NCBI GenBank assembly: GCA_035529395.1
Contig: DATKWT010000136.1
Coordinates: forward strand, 1-52,205
Direction of reading: 5' to 3'
Length of the DNA stretch: 52,205 nucleotides
From: Dehalococcoidales bacterium
Lineage (GTDB): Bacteria > Chloroflexota > Dehalococcoidia > Dehalococcoidales > Fen-1064
The notes under the pieces are model-generated. The model was not told where the DNA came from, ran no database searches, and saw only the letters and a program-made list of their open reading frames with translations. This document shows positions 11,244-18,535 of the stretch, piece after piece (position 1 is the first letter of the stretch; each line of letters starts with the position of its first letter). A program made the position numbers and the translations under genes.

Positions 11244-13583
11244 CTAGCTTTCGTTATCCTCCCTTTTTACCGGTAGGAGCCACAATGTGCCCTCCTGGTT
11301 CTCCCTGATGCGGTCCCAGTTCCAGAACATCGGGCGGTACTCAAGATTGAGCCAGGGCTGGATGTTATCGTTGTAGTGCGGACTACCAGGATGCCCGGAC
11401 TGCCCCGGTGGCAGTATCCACACCGCGCTGTCGACGTCGGCGAAATCCACTATCATCCGGAACGAGACACCCATATTAGTGGCAAAGCCCGTCCGGTAGC
11501 CCGGTGCGGCATTGAACACCGTAGTGCCATCGCCACCGATACCAACCGGCGGGATGTTGAAGGCTTCATCGTATGGCGGTGTCCGCCCCAGGTTGTGAAT
11601 GAATGTCTGCCGGTGCAGCCTGCCCCAGTTCCATTTTGCAGAATCGGCTCCCTGGTTCTCAGTGAGGAAGTCCTGCGCCTCCTTGAGCGATTTCTGCATC
11701 ACCTGCTGCCATGTCATCCCCCGTGTGGCCTCGTTCAGTTCCAGGATGGAATGGTCGTCTTCTTCCATCTGACGGAGGAGTCGGGGCAGGTAACAGCTTT
11801 GCCAGCGGTCAAGTGCGGTAGCCGCACCCGGAAGTCCGGTGAGACAAGAGAAGACGCTCGCCAGGAGCTTCTGCATGAAGACCTCATACATGGCCGCTGC
11901 TGGTGCATCCGGCGACAGTACGCAGTCCCATGATTGCAGCAGTTCCACAGCAGCCCGAAGCTCTTTCGCTGGTTCTATTTTCCCCAGCATCCGGACAATG
12001 TCTGCCGCCGGTCGACAATAGCGGTCGCCCTGGATGGCCATGAAATCCTCTATTCCGAAGCTAGCTTTGCCACGCAGCATATCTTCGACACGCCATGCCC
12101 GATAGGTAATGGTGGGCACATTCACGTGATACTTGTACCCGGCAGGAACTACCCGGTTATTGGCACTGGCAATGAAATGACGGTCCGGGTTCTTCGCCCG
12201 GGGCAGTTCCTCAAATGGTATGAATCCAGTCCAGTCATACTCTCCGGTCCACCCCGGCGCAGGCACGGCGTTAGCCCCGCCGTGAGCACGTACCGGAATA
12301 TCACCAAGGAGCTGGTAGGCGATATTGCCGGAATCGTCAGCCGTTATCCGGTTCATGGGTGGGCCGGCCCAGTTACGCTGGGACTCGCGGAACTCGTCGA
12401 CATCCTTTGCCCGGGCCATTCCCGGTATACACTCGAAGGTGCTGACCACTCCGTGAGCCGTCCACTGCCAGGCGAGCGGTACTCCGGGTTCAAGAGGCCC
12501 TCCGCTTACCAGCGGGCCGTGCACCGTGACCGGGATATCCTCGACCACCGGTTCGCTACGCCCTTTGACCCGGATTTCTTCGTGCCGCATCTCTGCTTCG
12601 AGCCACCGGTCCCGGTACAGGTATTTCCGTCCGCTCTCGTCAAAACGCTCCACGAACAAGTCGGCGATATCCGCCAGTGCATTGGTTACCGTCCAACCGA
12701 CATGGCCGTTGTGCCCGTAGAGAAACATGCCGGGCACGCCGGGGGTACTCACGCCGGTCATCTCCCACTCCGGCGTCCTCAGGTGGCTGATGTACCACAC
12801 GGGTGCGGTCTGAATAACGGCGTGCGGGTCACCGGCAAGCAGCGGTTTTCCCGAAGCACTCAGGTTGCCATCTACCGCCCAGTTGTTAGAGCCGCCTTCC
12901 GGTGAAGAAATCGGTGCCAGATTCGCGGCCAGGGCACTCATCTCAGCCAGTTCTGCCCCCAATCCCTTTCCAGTACTGCCGGGAGGGCATACCACCGGTG
13001 ACTCCCCTGGTACGTCCGGTTCGAGAAGGACTGCCGCTTCCGGGCCCAGTTCACGCGCAATCGCGGCACGGAGGAGTTTAATATTGAAATCGGCAGTCTG
13101 GGTGAGGAAGATGACTTTCCAGAGGGCAATGCTGTCAGTGGGAGACCAGGGTTCCGGCTCCAGGTCCAGGACGGCAAACTCCGGCGGCAACTGGTGTATC
13201 GCGCCCATTGCCGCGTTGACACCATCGCTGAACGCCTGGAGAATATCCTGCGCTTCCTGATTTAGCTGGGGATAATCGCGCTCAGCGACACGCTGTATAC
13301 CAAGTCGACGGTAGTACCGGTCGACTCGTATCAGAGGTTCACCAAGTATCTCCGAAAGCGTCCCCCGGGCAAAACGCCGTGTCCGCTCCATCTGCCATAG
13401 CCTGTCCTGGGCATGGCAGAAGCCCTGGGCAAACCAGATATCATGCTCATTGCTCGCCGTGATATGAGGGCACCCCCAGAGGTCACGAATCACGGACACG
13501 GACTTGTGAAGGCCGTCTGCCCATATCCTTCCCTTAATTTTAGGCAGTCCACGCTTCTTAAGCCGTTCCGGCGTTAACGCCAT
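11244..13583 (-). CDS. Penicillin acylase (Ntn-hydrolase) family protein
   Basis: 779 residues from the ATG at 13583, which has GGGAGGT 7 bp upstream; an upstream in-frame start lacks a site. The N-terminal DLWGCPHITASNEHDIWFAQGFCHAQDRLWQME is the family alpha-chain opening, and EGGSNNWAVDG gives the autocatalytic serine (about residue 232) that becomes the beta-chain N-terminus. Members cleave amide bonds of acylated amines such as penicillins or acyl-homoserine lactones. No signal peptide is visible, so a cytoplasmic enzyme is likely. It follows the RarA-hydrolase gene by 53 bp on the same strand. The substrate is unknown. Confidence 0.92.
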   Translation of the reverse strand: MALTPERLKKRGLPKIKGRIWADGLHKSVSVIRDLWGCPHITASNEHDIWFAQGFCHAQDRLWQMERTRRFARGTLSEILGEPLIRVDRYYRRLGIQRVAERDYPQLNQEAQDILQAFSDGVNAAMGAIHQLPPEFAVLDLEPEPWSPTDSIALWKVIFLTQTADFNIKLLRAAIARELGPEAAVLLEPDVPGESPVVCPPGSTGKGLGAELAEMSALAANLAPISSPEGGSNNWAVDGNLSASGKPLLAGDPHAVIQTAPVWYISHLRTPEWEMTGVSTPGVPGMFLYGHNGHVGWTVTNALADIADLFVERFDESGRKYLYRDRWLEAEMRHEEIRVKGRSEPVVEDIPVTVHGPLVSGGPLEPGVPLAWQWTAHGVVSTFECIPGMARAKDVDEFRESQRNWAGPPMNRITADDSGNIAYQLLGDIPVRAHGGANAVPAPGWTGEYDWTGFIPFEELPRAKNPDRHFIASANNRVVPAGYKYHVNVPTITYRAWRVEDMLRGKASFGIEDFMAIQGDRYCRPAADIVRMLGKIEPAKELRAAVELLQSWDCVLSPDAPAAAMYEVFMQKLLASVFSCLTGLPGAATALDRWQSCYLPRLLRQMEEDDHSILELNEATRGMTWQQVMQKSLKEAQDFLTENQGADSAKWNWGRLHRQTFIHNLGRTPPYDEAFNIPPVGIGGDGTTVFNAAPGYRTGFATNMGVSFRMIVDFADVDSAVWILPPGQSGHPGSPHYNDNIQPWLNLEYRPMFWNWDRIRENQEGTLWLLPVKREDNES

Positions 13584-13636
13584 GTCAGGACCTCCCAAAT
13601 TTAACACTGACACACGTCCACCGCGAAACAGACCCT

Positions 13637-15670
13637 TCAGTTCTCCTCTGGAACGTCTGCGGTGAATCTAGCAGTAAAGAAGGCGATCACTTCTCCGACC
13701 ATCTCGTCTTCATGTGCGCTCCAGAAATGGTCTGCCCCCGGTACGACATGGTACTCGGTGGGGTGACGAGCCGCCTTGAGATACTGCTGGAAATGGTCCA
13801 TCTGGATTACCGAGTCGATACCACCCACGATAATCAGCTTTGGCCTGGTGAGTTTCTCCAGTTCTACCCACCCGCTGTCAGTCAGTGCCGGTGACACCAG
13901 GACAAGACAGGCGACACGCTCCTCCTCAAGTGCAACCGGTAGAGCAACACCACCACCGAAGGAGTACCCGGCCAGCCCGATTCTCTCCTGGTCCACATCG
14001 GCTGCGCTGGAGAGAAACTCCAGGGCTGCCCGGACATCTTCCCTCTCATTGACTCCACCACCGAACTGACCGCCACTGTTACCCACTCCACGGAAGTTGA
14101 AACGGAGGGCGGCTATCCCCTGCTGGCTCAATGCTTCACAGATGGTAACGACCACGTTATTGTACATGTTACCACCATAGAGCGAGTGTGGATGGCAGAC
14201 CACTACCGCAGGGGACAGGGCCTGTCGTCCGGACAGGCTCTCCCTTTCAGGCAAGTGCCATTCGCCTTCAAGAGTGATTTCTCCACAGGGAAACTCCACA
14301 TGGATGGACTTCACTTTCTCACCCCTTTCGCCTTCCTGCTCCTGCTCTTTCACCTCAGCCCACCACTCCTTGAGTCGGGCAGCCACCTCTTGCTCATAGC
14401 CCTGGTCACCAGGGGTGTAGAAGCGCTTTCCCTGAAGCGAGTCCGGCAGATTCTGTTGTTTAACGAAGTGCTCCGGGTGGTCATGGGCATACTTGTATCC
14501 CTTACCGTAGCCGACCTCCCTCATCAGCGACGTCACCGCGTTCCGCAGGTGAAGCGGCACAGGGTCGTTGGGTCCCTGCTGAATCTGCGCCTGTACGGCA
14601 CCGTAAGCCCGATAGAGAGAGTTGCTCTTGGGGGCAGTAGCCAGGTAGACTACCGCCTCAGCAAGGGCAAGACTACCTTCCGGCATACCGATGAAGTGCA
14701 CTGCCTGCTGGGCGGCCATGGCGACCACCAGCGCCTGCGGGTCTGCCATGCCAACATCCTCCGAGGCAAACCGTACCAGACGACGGGCAATGTATAGCGG
14801 TCCCTCTCCTCCTTCAAGCATCCTGCCCAGCCAGTAGAGAGAAGCATCCGGGTCGGAACCACGCATCGACTTATGCAGCGCCGAAATAATATCGTAGTGC
14901 TGTTCGCCGGACTTGTCGTAGACCAGTGCCCTCTGCTGCACGGCATCCTCAACCACCGGCAGAGTAATATGACGCCTCCCGTCAGCATCCGGAGGTGTCG
15001 TCATAACGGCCAGTTCCAGGGCATTGAGAGCAATTCGGGCGTCGTGGTCCGACATCATCACCAGGTGGAGCATGGCCTCGTCTTCAAGCTCGATGTCTAT
15101 ATGGCCTAGCCCATTTAGCCGGTCCTTCAATGCCCTAAGGATAATAATACGGATTTCGTCTTCGCTGAGAGGGTTGAGCGTCAGCAACTGGCACCGCGAT
15201 AGCAGTGGCGCAATGACCTCGAATGAGGGGTTCTCAGTGGTAGCGCCTATCAGGGTGACGGTACCATCCTCCACGTAGGGCAGCACGGTATCCTGCTGCG
15301 CCTTATTGAAACGATGAATCTCATCGATGAACAGGATGGTCTTTCGCTGGTAGAGCTTGCGGCGCTCCCTGGCCTCTTCAATGATGCGGCGCAGGTCGGC
15401 AACACCGGCACTGACAGCACTCACCGAGCTGAAATGGGAATCGGTGGAGTTGGCAATGATACTGGCCAGGGTGGTCTTGCCACTGCCGGGCGGACCCCAG
15501 AGAATGATGGAGGGAATCCGGCCGGACTCGATAGCGGTTCTGAGCACGTGCCCCTTGCCTACCAGGTGCTCCTGCCCGACAAATACGTGGAGACTGGACG
15601 GCCTCATCCGGGCGGCGAGGGGTGCCTCCTTCTTCTTCTGCTCCTCAGACTTCTGCTCGAACATGTCCAT
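13637..15670 (-). CDS. rarA: RarA/MgsA replication-associated ATPase fused to an alpha/beta hydrolase
   Basis: 677 residues in one uninterrupted frame. Residues 1-440 are a full-length RarA (MgsA) clamp-loader-like AAA+ ATPase: Walker A GPPGSGKTT (59-67), Walker B ILFIDEIHRF (112-121), sensor 1 IGATTENPSF and the C-terminal tetramerisation domain ending near YTPGDQG. A Glu/Lys-rich linker (441-455) leads to an alpha/beta hydrolase (456-677) with CHPHSLYGGNMYNN, RFNFRGVGNSGG, nucleophile elbow GYSFGG (Ser570), Asp619 and His648 (GADHFW). RarA acts at stalled replication forks; the hydrolase substrate is unknown. AAAGGAAG precedes the ATG. Both halves keep their catalytic residues, so this looks like a functional fusion. 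Confidence 0.93.
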   Translation of the reverse strand: MDMFEQKSEEQKKKEAPLAARMRPSSLHVFVGQEHLVGKGHVLRTAIESGRIPSIILWGPPGSGKTTLASIIANSTDSHFSSVSAVSAGVADLRRIIEEARERRKLYQRKTILFIDEIHRFNKAQQDTVLPYVEDGTVTLIGATTENPSFEVIAPLLSRCQLLTLNPLSEDEIRIIILRALKDRLNGLGHIDIELEDEAMLHLVMMSDHDARIALNALELAVMTTPPDADGRRHITLPVVEDAVQQRALVYDKSGEQHYDIISALHKSMRGSDPDASLYWLGRMLEGGEGPLYIARRLVRFASEDVGMADPQALVVAMAAQQAVHFIGMPEGSLALAEAVVYLATAPKSNSLYRAYGAVQAQIQQGPNDPVPLHLRNAVTSLMREVGYGKGYKYAHDHPEHFVKQQNLPDSLQGKRFYTPGDQGYEQEVAARLKEWWAEVKEQEQEGERGEKVKSIHVEFPCGEITLEGEWHLPERESLSGRQALSPAVVVCHPHSLYGGNMYNNVVVTICEALSQQGIAALRFNFRGVGNSGGQFGGGVNEREDVRAALEFLSSAADVDQERIGLAGYSFGGGVALPVALEEERVACLVLVSPALTDSGWVELEKLTRPKLIIVGGIDSVIQMDHFQQYLKAARHPTEYHVVPGADHFWSAHEDEMVGEVIAFFTARFTADVPEEN

Positions 15671-16468: not shown

Positions 16469-17923
16469 TTATAGGGGCTTCACCACGTCCGTCAGCTTCT
16501 CGTGGAGCTTCACCATGGCGAGGGTGTCCTGTTTGCAGTATTTAAGCAGATTCTGCTTGACCGTATCAACCTCATCCGGCTTCCAGTAGGTGCCCATAGC
16601 CAGGTAGGCAAAAGCTGCCGATGCGGAATCGCCCTCACCGATTTCCATACCCTTATACGACATTCCCGAAACAAGTGCCGGCAAGGTGGCCTTTATCGAG
16701 GTGCTGCCGTGAAAGTCGGGGTGATAGTAGTTCCGCCTGATTATGGCTTCCAGGTCCACGATGCGCTCTCGCAGGGCACCCAGTGCATCCGACAGGTCAG
16801 GGAACAACTGCGCCAGGCCGTTAATGACCGCATTCTCAAAGCTGGAATAGGCGATGATGCTGCCCTGCTCCCCCAGGTCTCGGAGCAGACGCTCAGCAAG
16901 CTCCCGGCGGCAGTCTCCGGCAGGGTCCGCCAGGTACTCACGGTGCTCAATAACCCTGCCGACATCAGAACACACGTGTACAGAGTATTGTGTTGGGATC
17001 TGAGTATACGGAGCAATATCGGGATACAGTGGTATCGCCGTCATCATCGTTTCAAAATCCAGGTAGTACGCCGGCCACTCGATGGTCTCCAACTCCGTTC
17101 TTAACTCTTCACCAACGTACGACTCACCACGTTGAACGCAGTCCTTTACGTGGGTCTGGTTCTCCGTCAGGTCAAACCAGTTGGGGATGTCCTCGATACG
17201 TACAATACCATGCGCCACCAGTTCGCCAAACCTGGTCTGACTCAGCCTCGGAAGGTCGAAGATATGGTTCTTTATCCCTCTACCCACACAGATACGGAAG
17301 AGGTCACAGTGACGACATTCCATGATGAGTTGCGGTTCCGGTTTCTCCTCTGCCCTGGTTATCTCCTCGATTTCCCGCCGGATGGTTTCAAGCTCCTCGA
17401 CGCGTGCAAGGACTTCGTCAGTGTGGTCTATTCGCGTGAAGAGCGCATCATCCGCCATTCCCAGGCGGAAATCGCGGGACACCAGAAACAAGGAGACCCC
17501 GCCTATTTTCAGCCCACAGAAATCCGCCACCATGTAGGTATGGGCCATGTCGTCAATATATTCCATCCTGTCATTTGTGCCGGACTTCACCTCTATCAGG
17601 TGCCAGCCTTCGGCTTCCTGTTCCAGTACATCTGCCCTGGTGACAAAGCCGTCCGCCAGGAAGGCACCCTCAAAAATGGCTGGAACCGACGAGTGGAGAG
17701 CGTCGGTAGTCTTCCTGGCAGCAGAAGACAGGTTTACATCCGCTACCATCAGGCCGTCCGGATAGAGCGTCCTGGCCCTCCGGCCTATCTCCCGGCCCTG
17801 CGCAAACCGGAACCTGTCTCCCAGGGTCAGGCGCGGCTTCGGCGCTTCTCCGGTACGCAGCATCCATCCCAGCACGGGACATGTCAGCGCATTCAGGAAC
17901 ACATTCTTTGATACGTTTCTCAT
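16469..17923 (-). CDS. DUF2779 protein: Cas4-like nuclease domain plus DEDD exonuclease-like domain
   Basis: 484 residues. The N-terminal half looks like a Cas4/RecB-type PD-(D/E)XK nuclease: Asp98 (TRADVLE), Glu111 and Lys113 (IEVKSG), with Cys15 and a later triplet Cys203, Cys206, Cys212 placed like the four ligands of a Cas4 iron-sulphur cluster. The C-terminal half (DUF2779) has DEDD/RNase-H-like motifs: YYLDFET (Asp289, Glu291), SSFENAVI and YCKQDTLAMVKLH. A two-nuclease enzyme acting on DNA or RNA ends is inferred. No CRISPR array or helicase adjoins. It is the last gene of a minus-strand run that begins at 20918. Confidence 0.85.
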   Translation of the reverse strand: MRNVSKNVFLNALTCPVLGWMLRTGEAPKPRLTLGDRFRFAQGREIGRRARTLYPDGLMVADVNLSSAARKTTDALHSSVPAIFEGAFLADGFVTRADVLEQEAEGWHLIEVKSGTNDRMEYIDDMAHTYMVADFCGLKIGGVSLFLVSRDFRLGMADDALFTRIDHTDEVLARVEELETIRREIEEITRAEEKPEPQLIMECRHCDLFRICVGRGIKNHIFDLPRLSQTRFGELVAHGIVRIEDIPNWFDLTENQTHVKDCVQRGESYVGEELRTELETIEWPAYYLDFETMMTAIPLYPDIAPYTQIPTQYSVHVCSDVGRVIEHREYLADPAGDCRRELAERLLRDLGEQGSIIAYSSFENAVINGLAQLFPDLSDALGALRERIVDLEAIIRRNYYHPDFHGSTSIKATLPALVSGMSYKGMEIGEGDSASAAFAYLAMGTYWKPDEVDTVKQNLLKYCKQDTLAMVKLHEKLTDVVKPL

Positions 17924-17965
17924 GGTCTCAGTACATCCACCATCCGGCGCAGCGTTCTGAAAACG

Positions 17966-18535
17966 TTAGCCCACAATTATATCGTCCAGCCGCCGCTTGG
18001 GTACATGGTGCACCTGGTCTTCATCGCGCCAGTAGCGGGCATCGCCGCCCGGCTCCAGGGTCTCCATTACTACACGCTCCTTGGGTTTGCCCAGGGCCAG
18101 CACAAGGAGAATCTCGAATTGCTCCGGGATTTCCATAAGCTTACGCAGTTCGTCACGTTTTACCGAAGCCAGCATACACCCGCCCAGACCTTTGTCCACG
18201 GCACCGAGGAGAATACTCTGCGCGGCTATACCGTGGTCGACGCCGGCGTTCTTACTTATCTCCGTGTCTCCCAGGATGATGATGTAGCCTGAGGGTCGTT
18301 CCCCCTCCGGCGGGCCGGACCAGTCCGGAAGTGCCGCCGCCCATGCCAGAGTGGAGAACACCCGGGCATTTCTCTCCGGAGTGCAGGAAAGGACGTATTT
18401 CAGGGGCTGCCGGTTGGCTCCTGATGCAGAGCACCTCGCCAGGTCGACCAGCTCCTTCAGTGTCTCCTGCTCAATGGGGACATCCTGATAGAAACGCCTG
18501 TAGCTCCGGTTCTTCATTACCAGGTCTCTTATCAT
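17966..18535 (-). CDS. Nitroreductase family protein
   Basis: 189 residues with AAGGAAGGA before the ATG. Nitroreductase/FMN fold: NRSYRRFYQDVPIEQETLKELVDLARCSASGANRQP carries the FMN-phosphate-binding Arg/Ser residues, followed by GIAAQSILLGAVDKGLGGC and LGKPKE near the end. It is the short form common in anaerobes, and would use FMN and NAD(P)H to reduce nitro, quinone or other electrophilic compounds. It sits between the Memo-AMMECR1 gene and the DUF2779 gene on the same strand. Confidence 0.9.
   Translation of the reverse strand: MIRDLVMKNRSYRRFYQDVPIEQETLKELVDLARCSASGANRQPLKYVLSCTPERNARVFSTLAWAAALPDWSGPPEGERPSGYIIILGDTEISKNAGVDHGIAAQSILLGAVDKGLGGCMLASVKRDELRKLMEIPEQFEILLVLALGKPKERVVMETLEPGGDARYWRDEDQVHHVPKRRLDDIIVG

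Follow-up and report, generated by a model that had tools for sequence, protein, structure and literature searches.

A RarA ATPase fused to an alpha/beta serine hydrolase in two genera of environmental Chloroflexota

The DNA analysed here (the window) comprises 52,205 nucleotides of a Dehalococcoidales genome, contig DATKWT010000136.1. It contains one long reading frame that begins as the fork-remodelling ATPase RarA and ends as an alpha/beta hydrolase, raising the question of whether this is an accident of sequencing or read-through or a genuine two-enzyme protein and, if genuine, how and why the two were joined. RarA is among the most widespread of genome-maintenance proteins, and its molecular function is still undefined; the E. 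coli protein is a homotetramer that separates strands at gaps and duplex ends in an ATP-dependent manner (PMC8735627). In E. coli, the final 15 nt of rarA influence serS expression (PMC9012371). A conserved partner fused to RarA in one clade is a genomic clue to that function, and here the partner is, unexpectedly, a serine hydrolase. Our search of the literature on this hydrolase group and on RarA-enzyme fusions turned up no previous account of RarA joined to an esterase.

Two complete enzymes in one reading frame

The frame runs from an ATG start through 677 codons with no internal stop, and encodes a complete RarA followed by a complete hydrolase, bearing out the preliminary description of this locus as a single-frame fusion. 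The two parts meet at residues 452/453. The features of the gene, with the basis for each, are:

13637..15670, minus strand: fused rarA-hydrolase gene, 677 aa (single open frame; fusion also in five other genomes)
14351..15670, minus strand: RarA/MgsA AAA+ ATPase part, residues 1-440 (Pfam, match to 3pvs, structure match)
14315..14359, minus strand: charged linker, residues 438-452 (dN/dS, pLDDT)
14315..14332, minus strand: putative relict ribosome-binding site AAAGGGGTGAG ahead of the old GTG start (anti-SD duplex energy)
14311..14314, minus strand: NTGA tetranucleotide (here GTGA), the former hydrolase start (present codon 453) overlying the old rarA stop (junction compared with separate gene pairs)
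13640..14314, minus strand: alpha/beta serine hydrolase part, residues 453-677, with Ser570, Asp619 and His648 (triad conservation, AlphaFold, PDB matches)

The N-terminal part belongs to the RarA/MgsA family: it combines an AAA+ core carrying Walker A (GPPGSGKT) and Walker B (ILFIDEIH) motifs with a full-length MgsA C-terminal domain. Pfam AAA, AAA_assoc_2 and MgsA_C match at residues 55-437, with MgsA_C covered over 167 of 167 positions. Among solved RarA structures the nearest is that of E. coli MgsA (3pvs), which phmmer matches at E 2e-124 across residues 16-441. Superposition on that structure gave a Z of 28.7 over 323 aligned residues; the rmsd of 11.5 is high because the domains are shifted relative to each other.

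Pfam alpha/beta hydrolase families match at residues 483-669. Ser570 of the GYSFGG elbow, Asp619 and His648 are located exactly where the preliminary description placed them (domain positions 118, 167 and 196, plus 452) and are invariant across 29 orthologues, so that both catalytic sets are preserved, as had been proposed; CHPH and RFNFRG-type motifs are likewise invariant or nearly so. Modelled alone, the hydrolase part reached an AlphaFold pLDDT of 92.7 and a pTM of 0.90, and serine hydrolases and esterases in the PDB, several of the esterases lidless, match the model at Z 27-30. Feruloyl esterases and a Thermoanaerobacter lipase are among its structural neighbours, with Z reaching 29.9. 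The closest hydrolases by sequence are 3trd, 2i3d and 2fuk (27-32% identity), with structural matches of Z 27.2 over 212 residues for 2fuk, which is described as lidless, and Z 27.2 over 204 residues for 3trd. With its GxSxG triad, its fold and the absence of a lid insertion, the domain belongs with these lidless alpha/beta serine hydrolases. The earlier label, dienelactone-hydrolase-like, fits at the superfamily level only (there is a Pfam DLH match), because the classical dienelactone hydrolase nucleophile is cysteine, whereas here it is serine, in the window and in all 29 orthologues; lidless serine esterase is the closer label. Within this domain we also observed a loop insertion after HLPERE (residues ~26-38 of the L116 hydrolase domain, ~478-484 of the window protein). 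It consists of a repeated-looking motif, SGRQALSSGQAL, in genome G295, is about half that length in the window and is lacking in G294; it looks like a recent small in-frame duplication.

The linker had been described as charged and flexible, and residues 438-452 are indeed charged and fast-evolving, with pLDDT below 50 at residues 446-452. The full-length AlphaFold model (pLDDT 72, pTM 0.44), built from a shallow alignment, is too weak to judge contacts between the domains.

Distribution and origin of the fusion

The fused frame is open in six genomes, representing three species in each of two genera of environmental Chloroflexota: the window, G294 and G295 (95% identical to the window) in one genus, and G297, G301 and G303 (73-74% identical) in a sister genus. 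One of these genomes, G301, is a single contig of 2.30 Mb. The fused copies form one clade in both the RarA tree (support 100/96) and the hydrolase tree (99/94), so the two genera did not acquire the fusion independently. Nor was the hydrolase a recent foreign acquisition, as the hydrolase tree groups the fused copies inside the order with unfused orthologues.

We next estimated dN/dS from Nei-Gojobori counts; synonymous change is saturated between the two genera. Values were 0.04-0.11 for the RarA part and 0.09-0.26 for the hydrolase part. By contrast, the linker (taken here as residues 438-455) gave ~0.5-1.0 between genera, compared with 0.08-0.11 for RarA. Purifying selection thus acts on both enzymes but leaves the linker free to change. 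Because the frame is open in five other genomes despite saturated synonymous divergence between the genera, chance can be excluded. The fusion is real and is preserved by selection; it is not an accidental read-through.

The two genes are separate in many relatives. Judged by coordinates, at least 43 sampled Dehalococcoidia genomes from 21 families have them directly in tandem, the hydrolase lying on the same strand and no more than 160 nt from where the RarA match ends. In many of these pairs the rarA stop lies over the hydrolase start in a 4-nt overlap, TTGA, ATGA or GTGA, which puts the hydrolase in the -1 frame; this NTGA arrangement occurs in L087, L092, L095, L097, L125, L126, L129, L142 and L144, among others. 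Short stop-start (-4) overlaps couple the translation of the two genes and are over-represented among subunits of complexes (PMC10666635, PMC6728339), and the ancestral pair would, judging from its overlap, have been translationally coupled. It had been suggested that relatives with separate genes meeting near residue 450 would point to an assembly error in the window. Such relatives are numerous, but with six genomes in two genera carrying the fusion they reveal an ancestral overlapping rarA-hydrolase pair rather than an assembly error. We found no conserved slippery heptamer in the overlap (X-XXY-YYZ occurs in only 4 of 17 pairs, at different places), so a programmed -1 frameshift in the unfused relatives is not supported.

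The pairing is not obligatory, since the hydrolase has been lost in many lineages. Orthologues were detected at E<=1e-30 in 124 of 294 genomes of the class, with no match at this threshold in the other 170; the hydrolase was not found in sampled members of family f2, in the same order; and in other relatives it is encoded away from rarA. RarA evidently does not need the hydrolase, given how often the latter is absent. Where the hydrolase does not adjoin rarA, its neighbours vary from genome to genome and offered no functional lead. Outside Dehalococcoidia, relatives of the hydrolase exist, and none was found within ~1.5 kb of rarA among the phylum-level loci inspected.

The junction itself retains a trace of the separate genes. 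In each of the six fused genes, codon 453 reads GTG or ATG with an A directly after it; the NTGA tetranucleotide has thus been kept and is now read in-frame. The nearest unfused hydrolase, at locus L162, overlaps a rarA tail that ends GRKD-stop; the junction reads AAAGATTGAAGTCCATCCA there and AAAGTGAAGTCCATCCA in the window. Comparison of AAAGATTGAAGTCC from L162 with AAAGTGAAGTCC from the window suggests that a two-base loss at the overlap removed the rarA stop and joined the frames, leaving GTGA, although this is one comparison. The survival of the old start codon as codon 453, together with the neighbouring separate pair elsewhere, indicates that the fusion, which arose once, probably did so through a small indel at the stop/start overlap. 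Note that L162 is a contig of 3079 bases (G362:C28). It is possibly misbinned, from an unknown sister lineage, because the main rarA of G362 lies elsewhere, at a second, different locus without the hydrolase.

We also inspected the genes around the fusion. A DUF2779 protein (PF11074) and a nitroreductase are encoded upstream in the window (16469-18535, minus strand) and, by eye, at each of the four further fused loci that we inspected; in G297, G301 and G294 they come after a radical-SAM/AMMECR1-like pair. The recurrence of these genes at fused loci suggests a stable neighbourhood upstream of the fused gene. Directly upstream in the window lies a ParE-type toxin gene (PF05016; 15683-16214, minus strand) with a small upstream partner that has no Pfam match and is probably the antitoxin; a different ORF occupies this position in G294 (L167). 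Directly after the fused gene, the window's genus has a penicillin amidase family gene (PF01804, 789 aa; 11244-13613, minus strand), which the sister genus lacks there; the latter has a convergent gene that by eye is glycerophosphodiester phosphodiesterase-like.

Possible roles of the fused protein

The explanation we favour, and consider probable, is that one polypeptide carries RarA and an active lidless serine esterase on a flexible linker, with a single origin, as a permanent tether between operon partners. In the ancestor of the two genera, a small indel, located in the overlap or immediately ahead of it, would have brought an overlapping pair (NTGA) into one frame. The RarA part would do the usual work of a tetrameric, clamp-loader-like ATPase at gaps and stalled forks, and the hydrolase part would use its own Ser-Asp-His triad to cleave a metabolite that is an ester or thioester. 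Fusion would fix a 1:1 supply already set by stop-start coupling, and a RarA tetramer would bear as many as four esterase heads. The two partners would be tethered for good, each keeping its own chemistry, presumably with no direct enzymatic cross-talk. An overlapping gene pair would thus have turned into one protein of two domains, whose gene still displays the old start-stop signal internally.

The closest competitor shares most of this anatomy and differs on benefit: the genes were joined by chance, with no gain, and each domain is kept for separate reasons. One small indel would have been enough, the linker evolves freely and many relatives manage without the hydrolase. Set against this, the frame is still open in both genera despite saturated synonymous divergence, so the single polypeptide is at least harmless. 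We regard a neutral joining as a serious contender that falls somewhat short of being probable; neutrality and a mild benefit cannot be separated here.

A further possibility, compatible with the permanent tether that we favour, is that codon 453 is still used as a start, yielding a free hydrolase alongside the long fusion. The start codon and the A that follows it have been retained in every fused gene, and in the window's genus they are preceded by an SD-like AGGAG or AGGGG. The predicted anti-SD duplex there is -7.9 kcal/mol in the window (among the best 5% of the gene's positions) and -8.2 kcal/mol in G294 and G295, placing these sites among the top 3-5% of in-frame positions. The signal has faded in the sister genus, however, to between -4.1 and -4.4 kcal/mol; in addition, a purine-rich linker favours chance SD-like words, and six related sequences are few. 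A free hydrolase from the internal start is therefore plausible in the window's genus and less so in its sister. In that first genus, start codon and SD-like sequence have both been retained and may allow such a second product, and we hold a two-product gene to be a tentative proposition, a little behind neutral joining.

Functional coupling at forks is a more ambitious proposal, in which RarA brings the esterase to gaps or stalled forks, there to act on a protein or nucleotide-linked substrate by stripping off an acyl or ester group; alternatively, the ATPase cycle of RarA would control the esterase. The pair has been kept adjacent in 21 families of the class, often with an overlap of the type associated with coupling; the fusion has been retained through two genera; and complex subunits are enriched for short overlaps (PMC10666635). 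Class-wide pairing thus leaves room for a shared task at forks. However, many relatives, in family f2 and elsewhere, have RarA without the hydrolase, other relatives have the hydrolase apart from rarA, and the two were not found side by side in the loci inspected outside the class. Furthermore, the linker is unconserved, and the low pTM (0.44) offers no hint of a fixed interface, though the alignment is shallow. Frequent loss of the hydrolase argues against its being essential to RarA, and the link between fork remodelling and esterase activity raised in the preliminary description does not stand as a general claim, since many related genomes keep RarA without the hydrolase. Overall, we consider functional coupling unlikely. 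Its most specific form is more doubtful still: at replication gaps or stalled forks, an esterase dedicated to the task and delivered by RarA would take off an ester- or acyl-linked modification carried by protein or nucleic acid. Were this true, the fusion and the pairing seen across the class would give a first glimpse of a step of this kind in rescuing forks. If the pairing is functional, it offers a testable route into RarA biology; if not, the gene is a clean example of fusion between operon neighbours.

We consider it highly improbable that the hydrolase part is a non-enzymatic chaperone or assembly factor for the ATPase. A precedent comes from Myxococcus, in which SglS and/or SglT have been suggested to assist the hexameric pilus ATPases PilT/PilU (PMC9108774). 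The hydrolase part matches the NCBIfam SglT model (NF058544) at E 4e-17, though its 62.6 bits are far under the 300-bit cut-off and do not make it a member of that family; moreover, a pure scaffold would not need the triad that is invariant in 29 of 29 orthologues. Lastly, although separate genes with a stop and a start around residue 450 are common among relatives, an assembly or sequencing error that deleted a stop codon can be rejected with near certainty, as the same open frame occurs in six genomes of two genera, one of them the single 2.3-Mb contig, and the junction sequences differ between genomes, ruling out a copied error.

Comparison with known systems

Residues 1-440 of the window protein form a full-length RarA like E. 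coli MgsA (3pvs, 447 aa), which has no hydrolase domain; the window protein adds a hydrolase of 225 residues. In NCBIfam, some RarA models run on into a long C-terminal extension (NF009881-9883, 729-736 aa), but the window protein matches these only in its RarA part and below their cut-offs, and none of 14 control genomes scored above the model's cut-off.

The hydrolase part shares its size and triad with XC6422 (2fuk), Atu1826 (2i3d) and a Coxiella hydrolase (3trd), matching them at Z 27.2-27.8 over 204-212 residues with rmsd 2.2-2.7. These are free-standing proteins, whereas the window hydrolase is fused to RarA. A related small esterase, Rhodothermus marinus Rmar_1206 (5cml), is also fused to another complete domain, OsmC; the benefit of that fusion is unknown, and removal of OsmC raised esterase activity (PMC5113044). 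The partner in Rmar_1206 is C-terminal, whereas in the window protein it is an N-terminal DNA-repair ATPase.

The unfused rarA-hydrolase relatives show an NTGA overlap matching that of coupled overlapping gene pairs of the ATGA/TGATG type (PMC6728339, PMC10666635). By contrast, in the fused clade the two frames have been joined, and the tetranucleotide persists within the single frame.
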